A stretch of 64,000 nucleotides of DNA from contig JAHJCU010000004.1 in the NCBI GenBank assembly GCA_018812925.1, positions 186,001 through 250,000 of the forward strand. Direction: 5' to 3'. The DNA comes from Candidatus Omnitrophota bacterium (GTDB lineage Bacteria; CAIJMQ01). The notes beneath the pieces are model-generated. The model was not told the DNA's origin. It did no database searches and saw nothing but the letters and a program-made list of their open reading frames with translations. Shown here one piece after another: positions 227-61,150 of this stretch; position 1 is the first letter of the stretch; every line of letters begins with the position of its first letter. Position numbers and translations under genes: made by a program.

Positions 227-346
227 GCCCCTAGTTTTCTTCCCCTATGATTTCCCTCTAGAAATTGCGAATGCAATTTCAGGGACTTTGGTCCTGGAAA
301 TTCCTTGAATTTCTCAGGGTATGAAATCAAGACTAGGGGACTAGGG
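227..346. repeat. Three-hairpin repeat, copy A1
   Basis: The core at 254-319 folds into three adjacent hairpins: GAAATTGC/GCAATTTC, GGACTTTGGTCC and GAAATTCC/GAATTTC, bracketed by CCCT and AGGG. Outside it, longer arms also pair (CCCCTAGT and TATGATTTC on the left with GAAATCA and ACTAGGGG on the right). The same core with altered stem sequences occurs at seven other intergenic places in the window. The rest of 1-378 shows no gene that I can support. The repeat ends about 30 bases before the start of the next gene. Confidence 0.8.
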
Positions 347-7091: not shown

Positions 7092-8162
7092 TTATCCAAA
7101 GAAAACCTTAGCTTCTTCCAAAAGGTCATTATTAACGACTCTTATTTCACCAACCGCTTCTTCAAGAGGAACAGACACAAGTTCTCCTTTTCTAAGGGCC
7201 GCCATTTTGCCGAATTCTTCTTTTTTAACCATATCTATGGCTTTAAGTCCTAATCTGGTGGCAAAATATCTGTCAAATGCCGAAGGAGAACCTCCTCTTT
7301 GCAGATGTCCTAAAATAACAGAACGAGTTTCAATACCCGTTCTGTTTTCTATTTCTTTTTCCAAAGCTTTTGCTATTCCGCCCAATTTTACATGTCCAAA
7401 AGAATCAGTTCCTTCAGATTGAGTGAAGAATTTTCCCGCCTGCTTGCTTTCGCAAGAAGCGGGCAGGTCTCCACCCTTTGGAAGCGCGCCTTCGGCAACC
7501 GCAATAATACTGTAAAGTTTGCCGTTTTCTTTTCTTTTATTTATTACTTTACAAACTTCATCTATGTTAAAAGGCTCTTCAGGAATAAGGATTACATGGG
7601 CTCCGCCCGCTATCCCGCCTTCAAGAGCAATCCAACCGGCATGTCGTCCCATTACTTCTACGACCAAAACTCTATGATGAGACTTTGCAGTTGTATGAAG
7701 AGAATCTATTGCTTCAGATACGCGATTGATTGCTGTATCAAAGCCAAAACAAATATCCGTAGCCGAAAGGTCGTTATCTATTGTTTTTGGGACACCTACT
7801 ACCTTAACGCCTTTTTTACTCAATTTATTTGCGACTCCGAGCGTATCGTCTCCGCCTATAGCTACTAAAGCATGAAGACCGAGTTGATTCATGTTCTCTA
7901 TCGCTTTTTGCTCTCCGCCTTCTTCTTTATACGGATTTGTTCTAGAAGTTCCAAGAATTGTTCCTCCTTCGCGATGAATATCTTCCACTTTATCTATACT
8001 TATTTCTTCGACGTTTTTGTTAAGCAGTCCGCGCCATCCGTCTTTTATTCCTATTATTTCGTACCCCAATTTTTCACCTTTTACTACCACAGCACGTATT
8101 ACCGCGTTTAACCCAGGAGCGTCTCCGCCACCGGTCAGCACGCCTATTTTCTTCTTTTCCAT
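7092..8162 (-). CDS. pfp: 6-phosphofructokinase, pyrophosphate-type
   Basis: A 356-residue phosphofructokinase that phosphorylates fructose 6-phosphate in glycolysis. Family motifs are GGGDAPGLNAVIRAVV, GTSRTNPY, the substrate motif PKTIDNDL and MGRHAGWIA. The donor-site signature reads GGDDT (Asp where ATP enzymes have Gly) and PKTIDND (Lys where ATP enzymes have PGTIDND); both changes mark PPi-dependent enzymes, which work reversibly. Residues about 233-243 (PASCESKQAG region) are encoded by an inserted 33-bp palindrome. The start overlaps the coaBC stop by 19 bases and has a GGGAGG ribosome site inside coaBC. Confidence 0.93.
   Translation of the reverse strand: MEKKKIGVLTGGGDAPGLNAVIRAVVVKGEKLGYEIIGIKDGWRGLLNKNVEEISIDKVEDIHREGGTILGTSRTNPYKEEGGEQKAIENMNQLGLHALVAIGGDDTLGVANKLSKKGVKVVGVPKTIDNDLSATDICFGFDTAINRVSEAIDSLHTTAKSHHRVLVVEVMGRHAGWIALEGGIAGGAHVILIPEEPFNIDEVCKVINKRKENGKLYSIIAVAEGALPKGGDLPASCESKQAGKFFTQSEGTDSFGHVKLGGIAKALEKEIENRTGIETRSVILGHLQRGGSPSAFDRYFATRLGLKAIDMVKKEEFGKMAALRKGELVSVPLEEAVGEIRVVNNDLLEEAKVFFG
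7435..7467 (-). repeat. In-frame palindromic element in the PPi-phosphofructokinase gene
   Basis: A 33-bp GC-rich palindrome: on the + strand it runs from CCCGCCTGCTTGC to GAAGCGGGCAGG, with arms GCTTGC/GCAAG and CCCGC/GCGGG. It adds 11 residues to the enzyme between GALPKGGD and FFTQSEG, where relatives have a short loop. It is nearly identical, as a reverse complement, to the element in valS at 10464-10496. Length is a multiple of 3, so the frame is preserved. Confidence 0.85.
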
Positions 8163-9427
8163 TTGTTCCTCCCGATGTTTTGTATTTTATCAAGAATTTT
8201 ATCCGCCAATTCTATTTTGGAAAGTAGCGGCATTTTTTCTATTTTACCGTTTTTATCAATAAAAACAGCTTTATTGGTATCACTACAAAAACCCGAGTTT
8301 TTCATAATGATGTCATTTGCTACAATCAAGTCAAGATTCTTTGTTTTCAATTTTTCCTTAGCTACATCTATCTGATTTTCTGTTTCTATGGAAAATCCGA
8401 CCGTTATTTTGTTTTTCTTTATTTTACCAACTTCCAATAATATATCGGAATTCGGGACAAGTTTAATATCCCACGACCCTTCTGCTCTTTTTCTTTTTTG
8501 CTTCGTAAAAGTTTTCGGCTTAAAATCACCTATCGCAGAAGCCATTATCAATACATCTGTAGAGGCTAAATTTTCAATTACTTTATCTCTCATTTGCCTT
8601 GCAGTTACAACATTTATAATTTCAATTCCACCTGGTTGAGAAAGCAAAGTTGGGGCTGAAATTAATTTAACATCTGCTCCTCTTATTTTTGCCGCTTGAG
8701 CCAAAGCATAACCCATTTTGCCTGATGAAGCATTCCCAATAAAACGAATAGGGTCAAGAAATTCCCGAGTGCCTCCTGCAGTTATTAGAATTTTCACGCT
8801 TCTAAGATCTTCCCCGCCTGCTTGTCCCGATGTAACATCAGGGCGGGCAGGTTTTGCTGATAGGGCATGCTTAATATTTTTTATAATACTCTCTATTGAA
8901 GCAAACCTTCCTTCTCCTATTTTACCGCTTGCTAAAACGCCTTTATCAACAGGAACTATATAATAGCCCTTATCTTTCAATTTACCTAAATTTTCTCTAA
9001 AAATTACATTTTTATACATACCCTCATCCATTGCGGGAGCAAAGATTATAGGACCTTGAAAAGAAATAAGAAGCGTAGAAAGTAAATCGTCGGCTATACC
9101 GCACGCTGTTTTCGATATTATGTTGGCGGTGGCAGGAGCTACAAACATCGCATCAGCCCACTGCGTAAGTTTGATATGAACAAGTTCCTCATGGTTTGAG
9201 GCCTGAATCTGGGTATTTTTGTCCAGTTTATTAAACATCTTCAAATAAACAGGATTTCCAGAAAGCGTTTGGAAAGTCAGAGGATTAATAAATTTAGTAG
9301 CATTATCTGTCATCACAACTTTTACCTGCGCGCCGTCTTCCTGTAATTTTCTTAGCAATTGGCACGATTTATAACAGGCAATGCTACCTGTTACACCTAA
9401 TATAAATTTTTTACCCTCAAATATCAT
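8144..9427 (-). CDS. coaBC: Bifunctional phosphopantothenoylcysteine decarboxylase / phosphopantothenate-cysteine ligase
   Basis: This 427-residue fusion carries out two steps of coenzyme A synthesis. The CoaC flavoprotein half (residues 1-185) has GVTGSIACYKSCQLLRKLQ and the PAMDEGMY segment. The CoaB half (205-427) has the nucleotide-binding ITAGGTREFLDPIRFIGN motif and ends with a typical KKNKITVGFS...ANDI stretch. Both halves are intact. The linker contains the peptide KPARPDVTSGQAGG encoded by an inserted palindrome. With coaX at 24.9 kb, two CoA-pathway genes lie in the window. It probably forms an operon with rpoZ upstream and PPi-PFK downstream. Confidence 0.96.
   Translation of the reverse strand: MIFEGKKFILGVTGSIACYKSCQLLRKLQEDGAQVKVVMTDNATKFINPLTFQTLSGNPVYLKMFNKLDKNTQIQASNHEELVHIKLTQWADAMFVAPATANIISKTACGIADDLLSTLLISFQGPIIFAPAMDEGMYKNVIFRENLGKLKDKGYYIVPVDKGVLASGKIGEGRFASIESIIKNIKHALSAKPARPDVTSGQAGGEDLRSVKILITAGGTREFLDPIRFIGNASSGKMGYALAQAAKIRGADVKLISAPTLLSQPGGIEIINVVTARQMRDKVIENLASTDVLIMASAIGDFKPKTFTKQKRKRAEGSWDIKLVPNSDILLEVGKIKKNKITVGFSIETENQIDVAKEKLKTKNLDLIVANDIIMKNSGFCSDTNKAVFIDKNGKIEKMPLLSKIELADKILDKIQNIGRNKWKRRK
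8813..8851 (-). repeat. In-frame palindromic element in coaBC
   Basis: A 39-bp palindrome with outer ends CCCGCCTGCTTG and GGGCGGGCAGG and an inner stem CCCGATGT/ACATCAGGG. It is placed exactly in frame (13 codons) in the linker between the CoaC and CoaB domains, a position where an insertion is harmless. Its ends match those of the elements in the PPi-PFK, valS and pflX-like genes, but the central part differs. Confidence 0.82.
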
Positions 9428-9752: not shown

Positions 9753-12482
9753 TTATTTTCCCCCAATAGTTTTTAGTATCTGGTATAACTTTTCTCTCTT
9801 TTTTAAGAATTCTTCTTTTTCTGCTTTACATTTCTCTATTGCGCTCGGCTGCGCCTTTGACATAAAATCTCGGTTCGCTAATTTCTTCTCTATCCTTATC
9901 ATTCCCTCGTCCATTTTTGACAATTCTTTTTTTATCCTTGTATTCTCCCTTTCCAAATCTATGTCCTTTAATAAAATATAAACGCAAGTTCCCGACGAAG
10001 TAACTTGAGAAGAGAACTTCTCTTTAGCAGATATTTCTTTTTTTATCTGGATATCTTCAGCGTTTATAACCGATATTATGCTGTCTTTTTCTTTTATGAA
10101 AATTCCTTCTTCCTCTTCAGAGGATGGAATAACAACAAACTTCAACTTTTCGTGAAACGAGATATTCCGCTCAGCTCTAATGTTTCTGCTTGCTTGAATA
10201 ACTTCATATTTCCAGGTCGCCTCCTCAACAACCTTGTCTTCCGTTTTATCGATTTTAGAAATTGGCCACTGCGCAATTGCAACGCTTTCAGAAAAATTGC
10301 CACTTTTATACTGCGAAAGATGACTCCAGATTTCTTCTGTTATAAAAGGCATAAAAGGGTGCAGTAATCTTACTATTTTATCCAGAACATAGAACAATGT
10401 CTGCCTGCTGATTTGCGCCGTTTCGGATAAAACAGGATTCGGGTCCAAAGGACCATTTTCTTTCCTGCCCGCTTCTTGCAGAAGCAAGCAGGCGGGCTTG
10501 AATTTATACTTGATTAATTCTATATACCAGTCACAAAACTCGTGCCAGAAAAATTTAAAAAGCAACTCTGCCGATTCACTGAATTTAAAGTTTTTCAATA
10601 GTTCTGTAACTTTTTTATTGACTTCTTCTGCCCTTCTTAAAATAAATTTCTCGTCCAACCCTAGGGAAAGTTCATATATGTCTTCTACAGGTTTAAATCC
10701 ATCCCCCAGGTTTCCAATAGCGAATCGGGAAGCATTCCATATCTTGTTGCTGAAATTTCTCATGCCTTCAAACCTGTCCAGAGAAAAAATTATATCCTGT
10801 CCGGCTCCGGTATTAAGCTGCACAAGCGCCATTCTTAACGCATCTGTTCCGAAATCTTCTATTAATTCCAGAGGGTCGACAACATTGCCTTTGGACTTTG
10901 ACATTTTTCTGCCTTTTTTATCCCTGATTATGGGATGAATATAAACAGTGCTAAAAGGAACATCACCCTTAAATTTAAGTCCCATTAAAATCATTCTTGA
11001 TACCCAAGAATATATAATGTCATATGCTGTGACAAGAGTAGAAGTCGGATAAAAATGTTTCAAGTCAACAGTATCCTGCGGCCAACCAAGAGTTGACATA
11101 GGCCATAGGCTTGAAGAAAACCAGGTGTCTAATACATCTGTTTCTTTGGTTATGTTTTTACTGTCGCATTTTTTGCAAGATTTACCATCCACAACCTCTT
11201 TATTAAGCATAATTTCGTTACAATCTTCGCAATAGGATACAGGAATGGTATGTCCCCACCATATTTGCCTTGAAATACACCAATCTTTTACATTATCCAT
11301 CCAATCAAGATATATTTTAGTCCATCTTTCGGGAACAAATTTTATTTTGCCGCTTTTTACCGCTTTAACAGCAGGGCCTTTAAGTTTTTGAACATCAACA
11401 AACCATTGGGTAGATAGATACGGCTCTATCATTGTCCCGCAACGGTCACAATACCCTACTGAATGTAAATGAGGAGTAATTTTTACAAGATATCCTTCTT
11501 CCCTTAAATCGTTGACTACTTCTTCTCTGCATTTAAATCGCTCAAGTCCTTCATATTTTTTAGGAACTTGTTTCATTTTGCCTTCTTTATCCATAATTAC
11601 AAGATTAGCTAAGCCGTGCGTTTTGCCCATCTCGAAATCTGCAGGATCGTGGGCAGGAGTTACTTTAACGGCACCTGTCCCGAATGAAATTGAAACCCTT
11701 TCATCTGATATTACAGGAATTTCCCTTTGCGTCAAAGGCAAAATAAGTGTCTTATTTATAAACCGTTTATACCTTTTGTCTTTAGGATTTACCGCAACCG
11801 CCACATCACCAAACATTGTCTCCGGCCTTGTAGTCGCCACAGTGAGCTGCCCCTTACCATCTTTTAAGGGATAATTTATATGGAACAATTTACCTTCAGT
11901 CTCTCGATATTCCACTTCCACATTAGAAAGAGCGGTTCTACAGCGCGGGCACCAGTTAACAATATAATTACCTCTATATATCAATCTGTCTTTAAATAAC
12001 TGCGCAAAAGCTTCTTCTACCGCTTTAGAGTGTTCTTTGTCCATCGTAAATGAAAACCTGGACCAATCACAAGAACATCCCAACTTTTCAAGCTGTTTGA
12101 TTATTCTCTTTTCCTGTTGTTCTTTCCAATCCCAAATTTTACTTATAAGCTTATCTTTGCCAAGTTCGTGTTTGTTTATATTTTGCTTTGCTAATTCTCT
12201 TTCTATGACATTTTCCGTAGCAATACCAGCATGGTCACAACCCGGTATCCAAAGCGCGTCAAATCCCTGCATTCTCTTAAAACGTATTATTATGTCCTGA
12301 AGCGTTCCGCCTAATGCGTGTCCCATATGCAAGGAACCCGTTACATTGGGTGGAGGAATAACAATACAATAGGGTTTCTTGGGAGAAGAAGTATGAACTT
12401 CAAAAAGTTTTCTTTCTTCCCAGAAGGTAAACCACTTATTTTCTACTTCTTTGGGATTGTACCGTGGGGATATTTCTTGCAT
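9753..12482 (-). CDS. valS: Valyl-tRNA synthetase
   Basis: A 909-residue class I synthetase that charges tRNA-Val. Motifs seen: PPPNVTGSLHMGHALGGT (HIGH equivalent, residue 40 region), the CP1 editing domain, KMSKSKGNVVDP (KMSKS) near residue 525, the anticodon-binding helical domain ending HPFMPFITEEIW, and a C-terminal coiled coil (last 70 residues) that is typical of ValS. Residues 663-673 (PACLLLQEAGR) come from an inserted 33-bp palindrome in the anticodon-binding domain. Length is otherwise normal. It leads the valS-rpoZ-coaBC-PFK cluster. Confidence 0.97.
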   Translation of the reverse strand: MQEISPRYNPKEVENKWFTFWEERKLFEVHTSSPKKPYCIVIPPPNVTGSLHMGHALGGTLQDIIIRFKRMQGFDALWIPGCDHAGIATENVIERELAKQNINKHELGKDKLISKIWDWKEQQEKRIIKQLEKLGCSCDWSRFSFTMDKEHSKAVEEAFAQLFKDRLIYRGNYIVNWCPRCRTALSNVEVEYRETEGKLFHINYPLKDGKGQLTVATTRPETMFGDVAVAVNPKDKRYKRFINKTLILPLTQREIPVISDERVSISFGTGAVKVTPAHDPADFEMGKTHGLANLVIMDKEGKMKQVPKKYEGLERFKCREEVVNDLREEGYLVKITPHLHSVGYCDRCGTMIEPYLSTQWFVDVQKLKGPAVKAVKSGKIKFVPERWTKIYLDWMDNVKDWCISRQIWWGHTIPVSYCEDCNEIMLNKEVVDGKSCKKCDSKNITKETDVLDTWFSSSLWPMSTLGWPQDTVDLKHFYPTSTLVTAYDIIYSWVSRMILMGLKFKGDVPFSTVYIHPIIRDKKGRKMSKSKGNVVDPLELIEDFGTDALRMALVQLNTGAGQDIIFSLDRFEGMRNFSNKIWNASRFAIGNLGDGFKPVEDIYELSLGLDEKFILRRAEEVNKKVTELLKNFKFSESAELLFKFFWHEFCDWYIELIKYKFKPACLLLQEAGRKENGPLDPNPVLSETAQISRQTLFYVLDKIVRLLHPFMPFITEEIWSHLSQYKSGNFSESVAIAQWPISKIDKTEDKVVEEATWKYEVIQASRNIRAERNISFHEKLKFVVIPSSEEEEGIFIKEKDSIISVINAEDIQIKKEISAKEKFSSQVTSSGTCVYILLKDIDLERENTRIKKELSKMDEGMIRIEKKLANRDFMSKAQPSAIEKCKAEKEEFLKKREKLYQILKTIGGK
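10464..10496 (-). repeat. In-frame palindromic element in valS
   Basis: A 33-bp palindrome running from CCTGCCCGCTTCTTGC to AAGCAAGCAGGCGGG on the + strand. It is the reverse complement of the PPi-PFK copy with about two mismatches, although both genes are on the minus strand, so the element sits in opposite orientations relative to the two coding directions and still stays open. It encodes residues 663-673 in a loop between WYIELIKYKF and the helix SRQTLFYVLD. Confidence 0.85.
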
Positions 12483-12540: not shown

Positions 12541-12568
12541 AACAATTAAGTTGCTTCTAAACGAGGAT

Positions 12569-12663
12569 TTAATTCAAATTGCGAGTTTTCCTTCTTACAT
12601 ACAGAAAATAAAGTAGCGGGATTACAAAAAGAGTGAGCATTAAGATACCTATCTGATTTATAA
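12569..12663 (-). pseudogene. Remnant of an RND transporter 3' end
   Basis: Minus-strand translation gives ...ILMLTLFVIPLLYFLYVRR ending KTRNLN and a stop codon. This matches the C-terminus of the intact RND transporter at 15.8 kb (ILTLFVIPLLYFLYVSRR), including a run of near-identical DNA (the segment CATACAGAAAATAAAG is shared). Nothing of the upstream 1000 residues is present; the homology starts about 30 bases after the last attC-like site. It is therefore a 5'-truncated copy separated from the full gene by the cassette cluster. Confidence 0.8.
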
Positions 12664-12694
12664 GACAGGTCAAGTACCTTCTGCAAAAAAGGAA

Positions 12695-12755
12695 GTATAA
12701 CGATTGAACTAAGCCGCTCCGCTCTTGCGGCGTCGGCTTCAGTGATTGGTCAGGT
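12695..12755 (-). other. attC-like recombination site, 61 bp
   Basis: On the minus strand the site reads ACCTGAC (R'' box), then GAAGCCGACGCCGC, a short loop, GCGGAGCGGCTT, TTCAATC and GTTATAC (R' box). The AAGCCG/CGGCTT and CCGC/GCGG arms form the characteristic imperfect hairpin of short integron attC sites, and the sequence is close to the classical 60-bp attC family. It lies 14 bases after the stop codon of the serine hydrolase gene, the normal place of attC in a gene cassette. Confidence 0.78.
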
Positions 12756-12768
12756 ACTCCTTAGCGAC

Positions 12769-14160
12769 TTACTTAAATTTCTTAGCCGTCATTTCTCTGC
12801 CGCCCTGGTACAGGGTCAGGCTCTCGACCACACCCGCTTCGCTGAGGTTAAACATAATTTGCGCATCAACTACCTTATAGAAAAATTTAGTCTCTGCTTC
12901 AGGGAACACCTCGAACTTTCCTTGTCCAGTTGCTTGAGCATAGAGTCCGTCTCCCTCCCTGATGATTGTGATAATGAAATTCGGAGCAAGCTCATACTGG
13001 CCCACATAAGCATCATAGATTTTAGGGTCTAATTTAATTGCCGTACGTCCTTTAGAAGGTTCAAAATTTGTTAGTGCATATTTGTTTTCAAGCAAGTGAA
13101 GTCCAATATCATCTATGTCGTTTGTAGAATTTGAGAGCACTACCACACCAACACGCTTCTTTTTGTCAAAACCGATAAAAGAATGATAGCCTCCAGTCCC
13201 TCCATTATGCCACACGATTTCTGTGCCATATTTGTTTAGCACATGCCAGCCCAGCCCAATTTCTAAATTAAGCACGCCGGTGTTATTTCGAACGAGATGT
13301 GTTTCTTGCATAACCGGCAATAAGTCAGATTTGATTAAACCCAAATTAGCAGCCACGAATTTAAGCATGTCGTTTGCCGTCGAATGCAAAGCACCTGCAC
13401 CTGCTAAAGTTGGAATATCCCAATTCATTGCGGTTTTTCCAGCTTGATCATGCCCCATCGCCATAGTTGCTTGAAGTTCAGTCGAGAGCTTAATTCGTGT
13501 ACTGTTCATCTTGAGTGGCTCGCAGATGCGTGTTATTACCAGCGTTTCATAATCCATCCCCGCTTTAAGGGCTAGAATGTGGCCCAACAGTCCACCACCC
13601 AAATTAGAGTATTCGTATTTGGCGCCAATGTCTCTGGTTAGCGTGTAGTTCGACAGAAATTCATACATCTGCTCAACGGTATAATCCGCGTATGGATTAT
13701 TCATATTCTTGGGAGCAAAATTACCTGGTAATCGTGGAAGGCCCGAAGTATGGATAGCCAAATGAAAAAGCGTGATTTCTTTGCCATCTTTGGTTGGAAC
13801 TTTAACTGATTTAGGGAGGAATTTCGTTATCGGATCGCTAAGCCTCAGCTCTCCCCGCTTGACCATGTCCGCTAGTAATAGAGAAGTGAAGACTTTGGTA
13901 ATTGAGCCGATTTCAAACACTGTGTTGCCATCAGGTTTTTGGCTATGGTCTTGACTCAATTTACCGTAGCTAATAATCTTGCTTCCTTGGTCATTAACAA
14001 GGCCAACAATTAAGCCGACACTCTTCTTATACTTATCAACTCGCTCTTGGAGAATCCTTTCGACTTCAGTTTCGGCCTGACCGTCTTGAGCAGCAAACAC
14101 ATGTTGTGGCAACAAAATTAAAAGATACCCAAATACCAAGAGTTTGAACAGCTTGCTCAT
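12769..14160 (-). CDS. Serine hydrolase of the class C beta-lactamase / AmpH-like family, on an integron-type cassette
   Basis: The 463-residue protein has a signal peptide (MSKLFKLLVFGYLLILLPQH...FA) and the penicillin-binding fold motifs SITK (nucleophile Ser-x-x-Lys, about residue 86), YSN (Tyr-x-Asn, near 184) and HNGGTGG (the KTG/HxG box, about 308), then a C-terminal beta domain. It could be a peptidase, esterase or DD-peptidase; resistance to beta-lactams cannot be inferred. Base composition is visibly more GC-rich than the neighbours and the gene is followed directly by an attC-like site, both signs of transfer. AAAGGAGG precedes the ATG. Confidence 0.9.
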   Translation of the reverse strand: MSKLFKLLVFGYLLILLPQHVFAAQDGQAETEVERILQERVDKYKKSVGLIVGLVNDQGSKIISYGKLSQDHSQKPDGNTVFEIGSITKVFTSLLLADMVKRGELRLSDPITKFLPKSVKVPTKDGKEITLFHLAIHTSGLPRLPGNFAPKNMNNPYADYTVEQMYEFLSNYTLTRDIGAKYEYSNLGGGLLGHILALKAGMDYETLVITRICEPLKMNSTRIKLSTELQATMAMGHDQAGKTAMNWDIPTLAGAGALHSTANDMLKFVAANLGLIKSDLLPVMQETHLVRNNTGVLNLEIGLGWHVLNKYGTEIVWHNGGTGGYHSFIGFDKKKRVGVVVLSNSTNDIDDIGLHLLENKYALTNFEPSKGRTAIKLDPKIYDAYVGQYELAPNFIITIIREGDGLYAQATGQGKFEVFPEAETKFFYKVVDAQIMFNLSEAGVVESLTLYQGGREMTAKKFK

Positions 14161-14253
14161 TGGTCCTCCTTTGGTTTATTCTATCATGCCAAAAAGAGTT
14201 ACCTAATTAGTGAGCATAAACAACCGTCCCCTTTCCTGACAAATGTTATCTTG

Positions 14254-14267
14254 CAAGACCTGACCCC
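14254..14267 (-). repeat. REP-like repeat, copy 1
   Basis: On the minus strand this reads GGGGTCAGGTCTTG, and the same 14 bases recur on the + strand at 28285-28298. Similar GGGGTCAGGTCT sequences are familiar as short extragenic repeats tied to Y1 (IS200-like) REP transposases in other genomes; no such transposase is in this window. Here the repeat follows directly the truncated C_GCAxxG_C_C gene. Confidence 0.5.
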
Positions 14268-14276
14268 ATTATCCTG

Positions 14277-14432
14277 TTACATGCCTCCGCCAAAGCTGTC
14301 GGAAAGTTTCAACGCGATATTTCGATCAATATTAAATTTTTCGCCAAAGGTGGAAAGAACAGCTTGAGAACAGGAAAAACCATTTTTGAAAAGTACTACC
14401 GCCTTTTCTGGATAATTTATTTTTTTATTCAT
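14277..14432 (-). pseudogene. Truncated C_GCAxxG_C_C family gene
   Basis: A 51-residue frame starts with ATG after AGAAAGGAA and encodes NYPEKAVVLFKNGFSCSQAVL followed by ALKLSDSFGGGM, then TAA. This is the N-terminal third of the C_GCAxxG_C_C redox protein family, which normally continues beyond FGGGMG with its cysteine motifs. The frame stops where a REP-like repeat begins, so the gene was probably cut by that insertion. Members of this family are common integron cassette cargo, and the fragment starts immediately after an attC-like site. Confidence 0.7.
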
Positions 14433-14439
14433 TTTTCCT

Positions 14440-14547
14440 TTCTAACATTTCGCTTAAGCGGTAAAGCGTAATTGGCGCGGTTAGTGCCGAGCGCAGCGAC
14501 AGCACTAACCGTGACATAGCTTTGTCCGGTTGAAGCATTTGTTAGCT
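14440..14547 (-). other. attC-like recombination site, about 107 bp
   Basis: Read on the minus strand: GCTAAC (R''), TGCTTCAACCGG (L''), a long central hairpin with GGTTAGTGC/GCACTAACC, then CCGCTTAAGCGA (L') and GTTAGAA (R'). L'' and L' are complementary apart from an extra base, as in attC sites. It begins 18 bases after the stop codon of the C39-like gene and ends just before the next gene's ribosome site. Confidence 0.75.
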
Positions 14548-14564
14548 TTATTTTCCTATATTAA

Positions 14565-15200
14565 TCATTGAGAAATTGACAGATTCAGATGAATACCTTT
14601 AAATACTGCATTATTCCACTTATTAAGCAATTCTAAAGCTGGAACCGTGATATTTCCTGGTAAATCACCATTCATATCTGATTTTACAAGTGAATCATAT
14701 ACAAAATACTCATTAGTATTGAATCCCATCACTGTTATATAATGTAAGTACTTACTATTTCCAATGATTATAATAATTGGGATTTCATTAATAATTTTGT
14801 TTTTAATCCATTGTTCTTTTTGTTTATTTGATAATAAACCTAAATAATAATTTTTTGCTTTAATACTTTTGTTTTTCAGGTATCTCGTTAGACCCCATGG
14901 ATATATATATCCATTTCCAAGTTTTTCATTTATTGCTTCATATATTTTATATGGATCTTTAATTTCATTTTTTTCTAAATAAAGCACAGCCATTACAGAA
15001 TGTGCACCACATGTATTTCCTTCTTGAATCCGATTAAGCTTTGAATTCCATTTTAGTTCATATAAAGACTTATTTTTTGTTAAGCCTGGCGAGAAAACAA
15101 TTTCTATATCAAATACTCTGATCAAAACCAATAAAACCATTGATATAAGAATCAATAATATTACAGTTATATTTAAAAATGATTTTAATTGTTTAGTCAT
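14565..15200 (-). CDS. Membrane-anchored C39-like cysteine peptidase-like protein, on a cassette
   Basis: A 211-residue product with one N-terminal membrane helix (about residues 10-30) and a papain-like C39-type domain: GNTCGAHSVMAVLYLEKN carries the presumed catalytic Cys, KYLHYITVMGFN the His, and YDSL a following Asp. It may be a peptidase or an inactive relative such as seen in bacteriocin systems. The ATG at 15200 is chosen because AAGGAG lies nine bases upstream; an upstream TTG would run into the attC-like site. It is very AT-rich, unlike the other cassettes. attC-like sites lie on both sides. Confidence 0.72.
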   Translation of the reverse strand: MTKQLKSFLNITVILLILISMVLLVLIRVFDIEIVFSPGLTKNKSLYELKWNSKLNRIQEGNTCGAHSVMAVLYLEKNEIKDPYKIYEAINEKLGNGYIYPWGLTRYLKNKSIKAKNYYLGLLSNKQKEQWIKNKIINEIPIIIIIGNSKYLHYITVMGFNTNEYFVYDSLVKSDMNGDLPGNITVPALELLNKWNNAVFKGIHLNLSISQ

Positions 15201-15256
15201 TTCAATCAACTCCTTCAATTTATTAAATGCTAAATCTCTGCGCACGAAGCGCGTCA

Positions 15257-15354
15257 AGCTAACGTCCTTGCTTCACCAGCGTTGCTCAAACATAACATCA
15301 ACATTTTATTGCCGCAAGCGCTTATTCAACGTCGGGTGCAAGCAATTGTTAGGT
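15257..15354 (-). other. attC-like recombination site, 98 bp
   Basis: On the minus strand the site begins ACCTAAC (perfect RYYYAAC), continues TTGCTTGCACCCGACG, and ends CAACGCTGGTGAAGCAAGG then GTTAGCT. The two sides are imperfectly complementary with an extra base, the attC pattern. It starts 23 bases after the lipoprotein frame's stop codon and ends 57 bases before the C39-like start codon. Confidence 0.8.
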
Positions 15355-15376
15355 ATTTTGTTTTTTAAAAATTCCC

Positions 15377-15749
15377 TCAGTTTTGGTCATAGACTCTTGT
15401 CCACCAGCCAACAGCAGTTCCTTGGTATTGAAAGAGAGCAATCTTCTTCCCGAGGTCCGAATCAATCAGCGCCGCAAAATAGTCGTCAGGAAGTGATCCG
15501 CGTATTTTGACCTTCCTAATCTGTATTATTCTGTAGGTCTTTATGCGACCTTGATCGAAGCCCGTCATTTTGAAACACTGCGCAATAACATCTGCATTCG
15601 GAGCTATCTCTGGTAAATCAATAATTGGAAATACGCCGTTCTTGCCACACATGATCGTTTGATAGTTTGGTTACAAGTGTGTCTATTGGGTCTGCGCTTG
15701 CACAGCCGATAAGAAGGAAACAGACCAGTGTGACAATTGACTTTTTCAT
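15377..15749 (-). pseudogene. Cassette lipoprotein split by a frameshift
   Basis: The first frame (15749-15618) starts after AAGGAG with a lipoprotein signal peptide, MKKSIVTLVCFLLIGC, and stops after 43 residues. A second frame (15652-15377) overlaps it and continues with MCGKNGVFPIIDLPEIAP and a 91-residue domain ending YQGTAVGWWTRVYDQN. Joined at about 15650 they would give one lipoprotein of about 125 residues. A real frameshift or a sequencing/assembly error would look the same. Function unknown. An attC-like site follows, so this is the first cassette of the cluster. Confidence 0.6.
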
Positions 15750-15835
15750 TTTCTCTCCTTTAACACGTATTATACTGTCTAAATAATCTGGCAAATACTG
15801 CAATTTTTGCAGTGTCTGATTTTATTTTTACTATT

Positions 15836-18800
15836 CTACTCTTCTTCTGCCAAAAGAGAAGATTTTTTATTTGACCTGCGTTGTCTTCTGCTTACATACA
15901 GAAAATAAAGCAGAGGAATTACAAAAAGAGTGAGGATTAATGCGCTGAATGCTCCCGATATAACGGTAACACCCATAGGAGATTTAAAAGCAGTAGCTTT
16001 CCCCACTCCAAAAGCAAGGGGAATCATTGCGGTAATCGTGGTAAAGGTCGTCATAAGGCAAGGTCTTAATCTTATAGAACTTGCCTCCACAATAGCTTCA
16101 AGCGGTTTCTTCCCCTGCTCAATAAGCGTCTTTGCAAAATTAATAATAAGGATGCCATTGTTCACACCTATACCGGTTAGGATCATAACTCCAAGAAGAC
16201 TAAACATATTAATAGTCTTGCCAAAGATGAAAAGACCGAAAAGTATTCCAATCGTTGCCAATGGTAAAGCTGAGATTATAATGAATGGTTCGAACCAGCT
16301 TTCGAATTGAGCCGCCATAACCAAATAAACGAGAATAATTGCAATAAGTATGGCAGTTCCTATATCGCGAAAAGCCTCCTGCATCATCTTTATATTTCCA
16401 CCTGTATTTAAATTGACTTCACGAGGAACATTTATTTCTGTCAGTTTTCTCATAAATTCATTCGCGACGGTTCCTACTGGCTTGGTGGTATTAGCGGTGA
16501 GAGTAATGCTTGGTTGACGATTATATCTTTGTCTTTGAGTCGGGCCTGATGTTTCCTGTATGTCGGAAATTTGTTTTAATAAAAACATGTCGTTCATTCT
16601 GTTGGATAAAGGAATATTCTCTAAAACCTGTCTTTGTTTTTTCAATTTTTCGGGTATAGTGACGCGTATATCATATTCGTTTTCACCCTCGCGAAACGTT
16701 GTAGGCACAATACCTTCCAAAGCCGCGCGCACATTTAACGCCACAGAATTAACATCCATATCAACATCTGCTAATTTTGCGCGATTGATTGCAAAATTTA
16801 TTTCGGGTTTTCCGGGATGATAAGAAGAATCCGCATCCGAAATACCGGGCGTATTCTGTAAAACCGTTAAAATATCCTTTGCCGCGCTTGTAACAATTTC
16901 ATGATTGGGACCGGTAACATAATATGTAATTGGCATGCCGCCGCCGCCAACACTTGAGCTTATTTCTTGAACATTAATAGTGGCTCCCGGCAAAGACGCA
17001 AGAAAATGTTTTGTATCCTTTAACAATTCTACCGCCGAGAGGCTTCTATCATCTTTCCAATTGATTACTATTTGCGCATATTCGGGTCCTTGAGAGCCGA
17101 CACTAATCTCTCCGCCGGAAACAGCGCCGATAGTGGTAAAAGTGCTGTCCAGTTCCGGAATTGTTCTCAACTTTTCTTCAATTTGCTCTACCATAGACTG
17201 TGTTTTTTCTAAATTTGTCCCGGCCGGCATTCTTATCATTATGGAAGAAACGCCTTGGTCCGTTTGGGTGGCAAATTCCGACCCGATCATAGGAAGAAGC
17301 GCAATACTTGCAATTAGGAGTCCAATAACAATTCCAAAAACTAATTTAGGCCGTTTTAATAAAATGGGCAAAAACTCTTTATATTGGGCTTTCAATAATA
17401 TAAATCCTTTTTCCCATTTTTTTGACAACCAAGATTCCTTTGTAACATGCAAAAATTTGCTTGATAACATGGGAATTAATGTAAATCCGACACAAAAAGC
17501 AATTATTGTGGCAAAAATTTGCACTAATCCGAATTCTTTGAAGAACTGCCCCATCAGTCCCGACATAAACACAATAGGTAAAAAGACCACAATATTGGTG
17601 CAAATAGAAGCAATCACGGCAGGGGCAACCTCCATAGTAGCTTCTTCAGCCGCCTGTTTTAAATTTTTACCCAATTCTTTCGTATGCCTGTGAATATTTT
17701 CCATGATAACTATGGAACTATCAATAAGAACTCCTACGCATAAAGCTAAACTTGTAAGTGTAAGAATATTAAAACTAAAACCCGTCATATACATAAAAAA
17801 CATAGTCCCTATAAGCGAGACCGGTATTGTTATACTGACAATCAATGTGCTTCCTACTCCGTGCAAGAATAAAAATAGCACAATACCCGTAATAATAACT
17901 CCTAAAAACAAATTGCTTCTAACATCCGCAACAGCGTTTCTTATAAACAAAGAATCGTCCACGACCACTTTTAATTCATAACCCTCCGGCAAAGTTTCAT
18001 TGAGCCGGGCAATTTCCGACCTTACATTATCCACAACTTCAATTGTATTTGAATCCGGCTGTTTTTGGACAGTCAATGAAACTGCGTCTTTTCCGTCTAT
18101 CCTTGCAGTATCTCTGACTTCAGCATAGGTATCTTTTACTTCGGCTAAACTTGAAAGATTCACTTTTCTTGTCTGACGGGTTCTCTGGTCCATCAATGGA
18201 ATTTCCATTGAACTTATCTGCGATATATCGGTAAATTCGGCATCTGTTCTGCCGGATATTTCTAAATTCCCGCTGGAAAAATGACCTGCGGGCAAATTTA
18301 CGTTTTCCGATTTCAACCTATTAGATATATCAAGTAAAGTTATCCCATAAAATTTGAGTTTATCCGGCACCGCTTCCACTCTTATTTCCCGCCTTAATCC
18401 GCCCACAATATCAATATTGCCGACTCCCTTGACCGTTTGAAGAATTGGTTTTATGTTATCTTTTGCCTGCTGATAAACGCTTTGCAAATCAGGACCTGAA
18501 AAAGCTATATAAAGAATAGGGCTTGCGTTAATGTCGAGTTTAAGGATTTCGGGTTCTTTCACATCGTCGGGCAATTGTTCTCTTACTGAAGAAACTTTCT
18601 CCCTTACATCCGAAGCAGCCACATCTGCAGAAACATCCATAGTAAATTCACAGATAATAATCGATACTCCTTCCGACGATACAGACTGAATATTTTTCAA
18701 ATTATTCGTTGTACTGATTGCATCCTCGAGAGGTTTTGATATCAACGTTTCTACCTGGTCGGGACCTGCGCCCGGATACAAAGTTTTAACCGTAACGTAA

Positions 18801-23054: not shown

Positions 23055-23233
23055 GAATAAATTGATACTTGATACTAGTAGAAACAAGAAACAAACTTCC
23101 ATTAACGAGAATCGAGAATCAGATAGCTTTAGTTTTTAAATTTTGATATGTATTTTTGATTTTTAATCTTCCCTCTGGAATCTTGGAAAGATTCCGAGGA
23201 CTTAGTCCCGGAAATTCTCTGAATTTCTCGGGG
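23055..23233. repeat. Word repeat followed by three-hairpin repeat copy A2
   Basis: The stretch between kinase and nadC holds word-type sequence (GATACTTGATACTAGTAG, GAGAATCGAGAATCAG, ATATGTATTTTTGAT), the last shared with 48.2 kb. Then comes a three-hairpin core (23171-23233): GGAATCTT/AAGATTCC, GGACTTAGTCC and GAAATTC/GAATTTC between CCCT and CGGGG. The first stem differs from copy A1 at several positions on both sides, so pairing is kept. Confidence 0.75.
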
Positions 23234-31889: not shown

Positions 31890-32064
31890 GATTTAAGATT
31901 TTTCAACAACTAATCTTCAATTTTGCCCCGAGGAATCTGAAAGATTCCCGGGACTAAAGTCCTTGAGATTGCTTTGCAATCTCTAAGGGCAATTTCTAGG
32001 GGAATCTTTAATAAACTGTGATTATTTTACCATAAACCATAAATTATGAACTATGGACCTAAGT
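31890..32064. repeat. Three-hairpin repeat copy A4 with flanking word arms
   Basis: The core (31926-31989) is in the opposite orientation to copy A1: GGAATCT/AGATTCC, GGACTAAAGTCC and GAGATTGC/GCAATCTC, closed by GCCCC/AAGGGC. To the left lie AGATTTAAGATTTTTC-type words, to the right CCATAAACCATAAATTATG with its complement CTATGG. The whole hisG-dehydrogenase gap is made of this composite. Confidence 0.75.
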
Positions 32065-52376: not shown

Positions 52377-52500
52377 AAATTGCATCCTGCAATTTCAGGG
52401 ACTTTAGTCCCGGAAATTCTTTGAATTTCTCGGGACCAGAAATCAAGATATGGGGATGAAATCCTCCCTGTTACATTTCATGGAAATGTTAGGAGGACTA
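52355..52500. repeat. Three-hairpin repeat copy A5 plus a second nested palindrome
   Basis: The core at 52370-52434 has GAAATTGC/GCAATTTC, GGGACTTTAGTCCC and GAAATTC/GAATTTC. Outer arms TCCCCCTTGATTTC and GAAATCAAGATATGGGGA also pair. It is followed by TCCTCCCTG...ACATTTC / GAAATGTTAGGAGGA (52461-52500), which matches the outer arm of copy A6 at 37 kb. The left arm is translated as the last residues of ffh. Confidence 0.8.
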
Positions 52501-61004: not shown

Positions 61005-61150
61005 ACATTGGTTAGATTTCGTAATTGGTAACTCGCCCCGTGGAATCTAAAAGATTCCCGGGACCAAAGTCCTTGAGATTGCTCAGCAATCTCTAAGGGT
61101 AAACTGTAATTCGTAATTTTTTAATTACCATTTACCATTTACTATTTGCG
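61005..61150. repeat. Three-hairpin repeat copy A8 with flanking word arms
   Basis: The core (61035-61099) has GGAATCT/AGATTCC, GGGACCAAAGTCC and GAGATTGC/GCAATCTC, orientation as copy A4, which it matches closely. Words TCGTAATTGGTAACTC on the left and TAATTACCATTTACCATT on the right flank it; the left one is the complement of a word at 58.9 kb. The whole rdgB-trpF gap is repeat. Confidence 0.75.

Follow-up and report, generated by a model that had tools for sequence, protein, structure and literature searches.

The 64 kb window analysed here (the whole stretch of 64,000 nucleotides, G000:C11:186001-250000) contains a chromosomal CALIN, that is, an integrase-less array of gene cassettes, and it is one of two such arrays in the genome G000. 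The array consists of three cassettes in one orientation behind a promoter-like head, and we consider it probable that these cassettes were placed by IntI-type recombination at attC sites and were exchanged after G000 and its congener G002 had split. CALINs, which are defined by two or more attC sites, gaps under 4 kb and no IntI, are common, and in surveys they equal or outnumber complete integrons (PMC9668308, PMC9024848). They are already known as a kind, and what appears to be new is the membership of the phylum CAIJMQ01 among their hosts. We infer that the host belongs to this GTDB phylum, which is called Candidatus Ocupiota in PMC11382960. This placement follows from G001, a genome of the same family that includes, with identical sequence, contig CAIJMQ010000009.1, whose accession stem is that of CAIJMQ01. 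In a search of open-access literature, the terms used brought up no report of integrons from candidate phyla or from CAIJMQ01, which is weak evidence. Less ordinary in the present case are a 48-bp element at the head of arrays, which terminates at G^TT and has four copies although no integrase was found, and the duplicated 3' ends of flanking genes.

Setting of the array

The genome G000 comprises 1.47 Mb in 14 contigs and is 92% complete. The contig carrying the array is more than 579 kb long, and the array lies between valS and an RND efflux operon. Read along the - strand, the MarR-TolC-MFP-RND operon is followed by cassette 1, the attC site at 15257-15354, cassette 2, the attC site at 14440-14547, cassette 3, the attC site at 12695-12755, and then a short border and valS. 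In this border, the 3' end of an RND gene is present for a second time. The cassettes extend, on the - strand, from 15763 to 15263, from 15262 to 14446 and from 14445 to 12701. Each of them ends in a single attC site at the 3' end of its gene, and all three sites are on the - strand in a single orientation. Neighbouring sites are spaced 1685 and 710 nt apart and all fall within 2.7 kb, well inside the 4 kb limit for CALINs. The array has the features that mark a CALIN (at least two covariance-model attC sites, gaps of <4 kb, the same orientation and no integron integrase nearby), while the intI gene of a complete integron was not found in G000. The CALIN reading of the initial annotation is thus supported by the published definition. 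A DNA search of phage sequences gave no match to the array.

The three attC sites

Covariance model R1 was built from 13 attC sites of plasmid resistance cassettes; its R and L helices, like its extrahelical base, were specified manually. This model found 65 attC sites in stretches adjoining integrases, in Omnitrophota and other phyla, and model R2 was built from those 65 integrase-adjacent sites, with no window or plasmid site included. A homemade palindrome finder was used only for choosing training sites and for spotting a border site in G002, since on GC-rich plasmids it produced numerous false positives and at site 1 it did not recover the correct ends.

Over the full 64 kb, R1 identifies site 1 (12695-12755; 29.1 bits, E 1e-5), which is the last in the array, site 2 (14440-14547; 18.1 bits, E 0.014) and site 3 (15257-15354; 20.6 bits, E 0.0027), which is the first. 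Just one further R1 match reaches E<=10, and it is site 2, a palindrome, read on the other strand. R2 recovers the same three sites with 38.3, 22.7 and 28.9 bits, respectively. The initial annotation had proposed three attC sites, on one strand and in one orientation, at exactly these coordinates and had named a covariance-model check as the one on which the claim could fail; the sites are matched significantly by both of these independently built models. Its further observation that the sites directly follow stop codons also holds, with site 1 starting 13 nt past the stop of the serine hydrolase gene (12769), site 2 starting 17 nt past that of the C39-like gene (14565) and site 3 starting 22 nt past that of the first-cassette ORF (15377). 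The R'' and R' boxes it described are readable at all three sites, in a layout (R''/L''/L'/R') that fits both models. In the sense direction they read ACCTGAC/GTTATAC at site 1, where the R'' box is degenerate, AGCTAAC/GTTAGAA at site 2 and ACCTAAC/GTTAGCT at site 3. The corresponding G^TT crossovers are located between 12701 and 12700, between 14446 and 14445, and between 15263 and 15262.

The background of R2 is close to nothing: in 79 other bacterial loci, amounting to 1.27 Mb, it gave one match with E<=10, of 43 bits. This lone match (L050:14607-14680) lies in the Omnitrophota genome bin103, near its valS, and may be a genuine attC site. Rfam searched at gathering thresholds gave no attC match. 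Among 31 sites of the phylum, 83% of the pair cells hold standard pairs. Changes on both sides are seen in 92 cells, compared with 38.9 after shuffling and 15-22 when the partner is slid; as the 31-site alignment was fitted to the model, this covariation count is biased in favour of the structure. Single-strand DNA folding gives z-scores of -2.45 for site 1, -4.31 for site 2 and -1.45 for site 3, the last being unremarkable.

Site 2 is 78-82% identical at the DNA level to sequences in 16 plasmid records. One of these relatives is the attC site of the DUF3788/aac(6')-Ia cassette in a class 1 integron, beside intI1; unlike the cassette in the window, it accompanies an unrelated gene in a clinical array that bears its own intI1. 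On Acinetobacter baumannii plasmids, a relative of site 2 adjoins an NmrA-family gene (L269:2501-2611), with no integrase annotated in 5 kb. Site 1 has no strong DNA relative on plasmids, its matches there (E 0.009 and worse, 77-78%) lying in attC-type regions, and for site 3 the plasmid search returned only a chance-level match. Taken together, model, structure and DNA similarity show that the three sites are genuine attC sites.

Cassette cargo

The gene of cassette 1 (15377-15750, - strand) is a lipoprotein-like ORF in two overlapping frames, one for the signal part and one for the remainder, and it appears to be frameshifted. Cassette 2 codes for a small secreted or membrane protein (14565-15200, - strand; 26.0% GC), for which a C39-peptidase-like match (PF13529, E 0.004) is weak and below the cut-off. 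Cassette 3 contains a serine hydrolase with a beta-lactamase/AmpH-like fold and a DUF3471 domain (12769-14160, - strand; PF00144, E 1.5e-61; PF11954, E 4e-14), which, among the matches listed, stays under the NCBIfam cut-offs for named enzymes. The same cassette also carries a 51-aa truncated fragment of a C_GCAxxG_C_C redox protein (14277-14432, - strand), matching positions 1-33 of the 118 in PF09719 with 27.3 bits. The initial annotation had named both families as cargo; the hydrolase stands as described, whereas the redox gene is only this truncated piece. Its remark on differing base composition is borne out by GC contents of 43.0, 35.3, 26.0 and 42.3%, where the window as a whole averages 36.6%.

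Between the truncated gene and the hydrolase lies a repeat (14158-14270, - strand), pieces of which are 90-97% identical elsewhere in G000 and G002, and which is probably the scar of an insertion or deletion. Elsewhere in the two genomes the pieces are also intergenic (GGGGTCAGGTCTTGCAA...ACATTTGTCAG). The repeat is possibly an IS end carrying a promoter.

Search for an integrase

An IntI profile gave nothing over the cut-off in G000 (assembly 92% complete) and six other genomes of the phylum, in line with the initial annotation, which had seen no integrase in view and had asked for intI to be sought elsewhere in the genome. As a positive control, the same profile scores plasmid IntI1 at 505-508 bits, and the same search finds IntI in 18 of 384 Omnitrophota. 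The tyrosine recombinases found in G000 are two, assigned by curated models to XerD (381 bits, cut-off 330) and XerC (343 bits, cut-off 335), and neither match to the profile includes its IntI-specific stretch. XerC and XerD are likewise the only tyrosine recombinases found in G002. Given the completeness of the assembly, an IntI gene may be present on an unbinned plasmid.

Second cluster and comparison with relatives

The second cluster of G000, the comparison with its relatives and the truncation of the redox gene were absent from the initial annotation. R2 finds seven sites in G000, namely the three in the window (locus A) and four on contig C10 (38802-42626), in one orientation, between genes for an adenylate cyclase and a histidine kinase (locus B). 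In the relatives, it finds 10 sites in the congener G002, nine in G005 and two in G004, and no match with E<=1 in G001, G003 and G006. In G001, a more distant member of the same family, the cyclase and kinase genes are 46 bp apart and thus present locus B empty. G005 and G004, further relatives at the level of genera and without IntI, carry their attC sites on L204-L210, several of those in G005 being alike.

Arrays are present at both loci in G002, with cassettes different from those of G000. The valS and RND operon flanks of the window are 95-98% identical to those of G002 (valS 97% at the protein level), and a DNA search of the window array against G002 returns these flanks and short repeats only, with no cassette similarity. 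Array cargo includes toxin-antitoxin, HEPN and HNH genes; in the G002 arrays there are a HEPN protein and YafQ-RelB and ParE-Phd/YefM pairs (L198:3516-4540 and L200:71-331). The G002 contigs of L198 and L200 overlap by 150 identical bases and are likely joined there. The contigs of G002 are short, and its locus A is spread over two of them (C24 and C12) that are joined by inference only. On sequence comparison, cassettes have probably been exchanged since the species split, the main alternative being an ancestral array of greater length from which the two species lost different cassettes.

Borders and head elements

The downstream (3') border of the array (12598-12700, - strand) starts right after the crossover and is common to G000 and contig C12 of G002. 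From G^TT onwards, 94 of 103 bases are identical in the two genomes, but on the cassette side only 23 of 60 are, so the similarity begins at the G^TT crossover. In the last ten cassette-side bases 7 of 10 agree, which the R' and L' boxes explain in part. At locus B, three arrays terminate in three different sites, and the shared sequence begins after the R' box. In the last site on C10, the R' box reads ATTATAG, with its G mutated.

Upstream of the first cassette, the head of the window array (15763-15853, - strand) ends in ...TATAATACGTG^TTAAAG at 15764/15763. Alignment reveals that it is homologous to the array head of G002. Promoter-like hexamers are degenerate in the window head, while TTGTCA-17-TATAAT can be read by eye in that of G002. 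An identification of this element as attI was dropped, similar promoter-bearing stretches being present upstream of non-cassette genes.

A different, B-type head of 48 bp is located upstream of first cassettes in four copies, two in G000 (L196:4217-4264 and 8132-8179) and two in G002 (L200 on contig C32 and L197 on contig C22, near 2180-2240). Before the crossover, 39-43 of 48 bases agree among the copies, and beyond the box 9-18 of 41. G^TT marks the end of the B-type head, directly before the first cassette, and in some copies promoter-like hexamers can be seen by eye. The copy on C22 precedes a GH99-like cassette with no adjoining cyclase. This repeated head may be attI-like or attG-like in nature, or it may be ordinary DNA of the flanks, copied along.

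Both clusters have a further copy of the upstream gene's 3' end, inside or beyond the array. The window has a diverged second copy, or remnant, of the RND efflux pump gene 3' end (12568-12643, - strand), which is 80% identical over 76 nt to 15865-15940 and 90.6% over 53 nt. Such copies are 80-90% identical in G000 and 100% identical over 51 bp at locus A of G002. Outside the window, the duplicated 3' ends are located at L196:4103-4286 / 7865-8201 and at L148:1-51 / 11087-11137, and at locus B of G002 the downstream border is present twice. The duplication suggested an integrative element that uses the 3' end of the RND gene for attachment, an idea that was dropped as no integrase was found for it. 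A separate interspersed repeat of about 75-125 bp, MITE-like in appearance, has dozens of copies in G000 and its relatives; in the window it is present at 31919-31995 (-), 52390-52434 (+), 23183-23233 (+), 61035-61099 (-) and 254-319 (+).

Origin of the array

In the proposed mechanism, each cassette would be a gene or gene pieces with an attC hairpin, inserted through attC recombination by an IntI-type integrase at an attG-like or attI-like chromosomal site. The enzyme would have acted in trans, its source being a mobile element or an integron that has since disappeared, and exchange of cassettes would have followed the split of G000 and G002. Such an IntI is the likely agent because in relatives it is IntI that recombines cassettes at G^TT.

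A competing account, that a complete integron lost its integrase long ago and its cassettes have been static since, is somewhat improbable in our judgement but deserves serious weight. It agrees with the absence of IntI from seven genomes of the phylum, with the truncated gene, frameshifted gene and repeat scar in the window array, and with the general view of CALINs as degraded integrons (PMC9024848); unequal losses from a longer ancestral array could moreover imitate exchange. However, static decay would leave shared cassettes, while two congeners with valS proteins of 97% identity differ in their cassettes at both of the positions they share, and no DNA similar to the cassettes of the window is present in G002. 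Movement of cassettes by XerC/XerD without any IntI is very unlikely. No tyrosine recombinases other than these enzymes were found in G000 and G002, and IntI belongs to the same family, but both are ordinary XerC and XerD by the curated models. Recombination of attC hairpins by Xer has not been reported to our knowledge, and XerCD is present in nearly all bacteria whereas attC clusters are patchy.

It is also extremely improbable that the sites are terminators, REP or MITE hairpins or chance palindromes after stop codons. They are inverted repeats directly past genes, the usual place of a terminator, but they have no T-run, a terminator scan gave none there, and the R''/L''/L'/R' layout fits two attC models. 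The three site sequences differ from one another, in contrast to members of a repeat family; the background in 1.27 Mb is near zero, and site 2 is like the attC sites of clinical cassettes. This reading has largely been refuted. A foreign array joined to the genome by binning or assembly error is scarcely credible either: the genomes of G000 and its relatives are fragmentary, but the array is placed inside a large contig with flanks that are nearly identical in the congener, which independently has an array at the same place.

Relation to known systems

In carrying three attC sites of the same orientation in 2.7 kb, one per cassette end, in a genome where no IntI was found, the array resembles CALINs as defined by IntegronFinder; it differs from CALINs in general in its candidate-phylum host, in the array-head element that recurs and in the second copies of flanking-gene 3' ends. 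Xanthomonas is known to have CALINs that lie apart from intI, at chromosomal loci that are conserved (PMC12444791). As here, those cassette clusters have no local IntI and occupy the same chromosomal positions in related species (PMC12444791), but many Xanthomonas genomes have an ancestral intI elsewhere, in contrast to none of the seven genomes of this phylum. Insertion of cassettes into genomes at attG sites has also been described (Loot et al. 2024, as cited in PMC12901181 and PMC12444791). As presented in those citing papers, it shares with the present arrays the G^TT crossover and chromosomal positions that are neither attC nor beside intI. On the same accounts, E. coli insertions are broadly dispersed, whereas the present arrays recur at the same positions and have, in the B-type head, 48 bp of conserved sequence.

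The 48-bp head stands at three array positions, on two loci and one further contig. It is conceivable, though we hold it to be unlikely, that the lineage keeps dedicated cassette-receiving sites without encoding IntI and that an enzyme from outside the chromosome performs the exchange. If the head elements are true receiving sites kept without an integrase, cassette exchange by a borrowed integrase would become testable. The second copies of flanking-gene 3' ends offer a hint as to how arrays may capture the ends of host genes. The present array adds to the range of the cassette pool a candidate phylum known from a handful of metagenome assemblies, and one attC site of this phylum resembles attC sites on clinical resistance plasmids.
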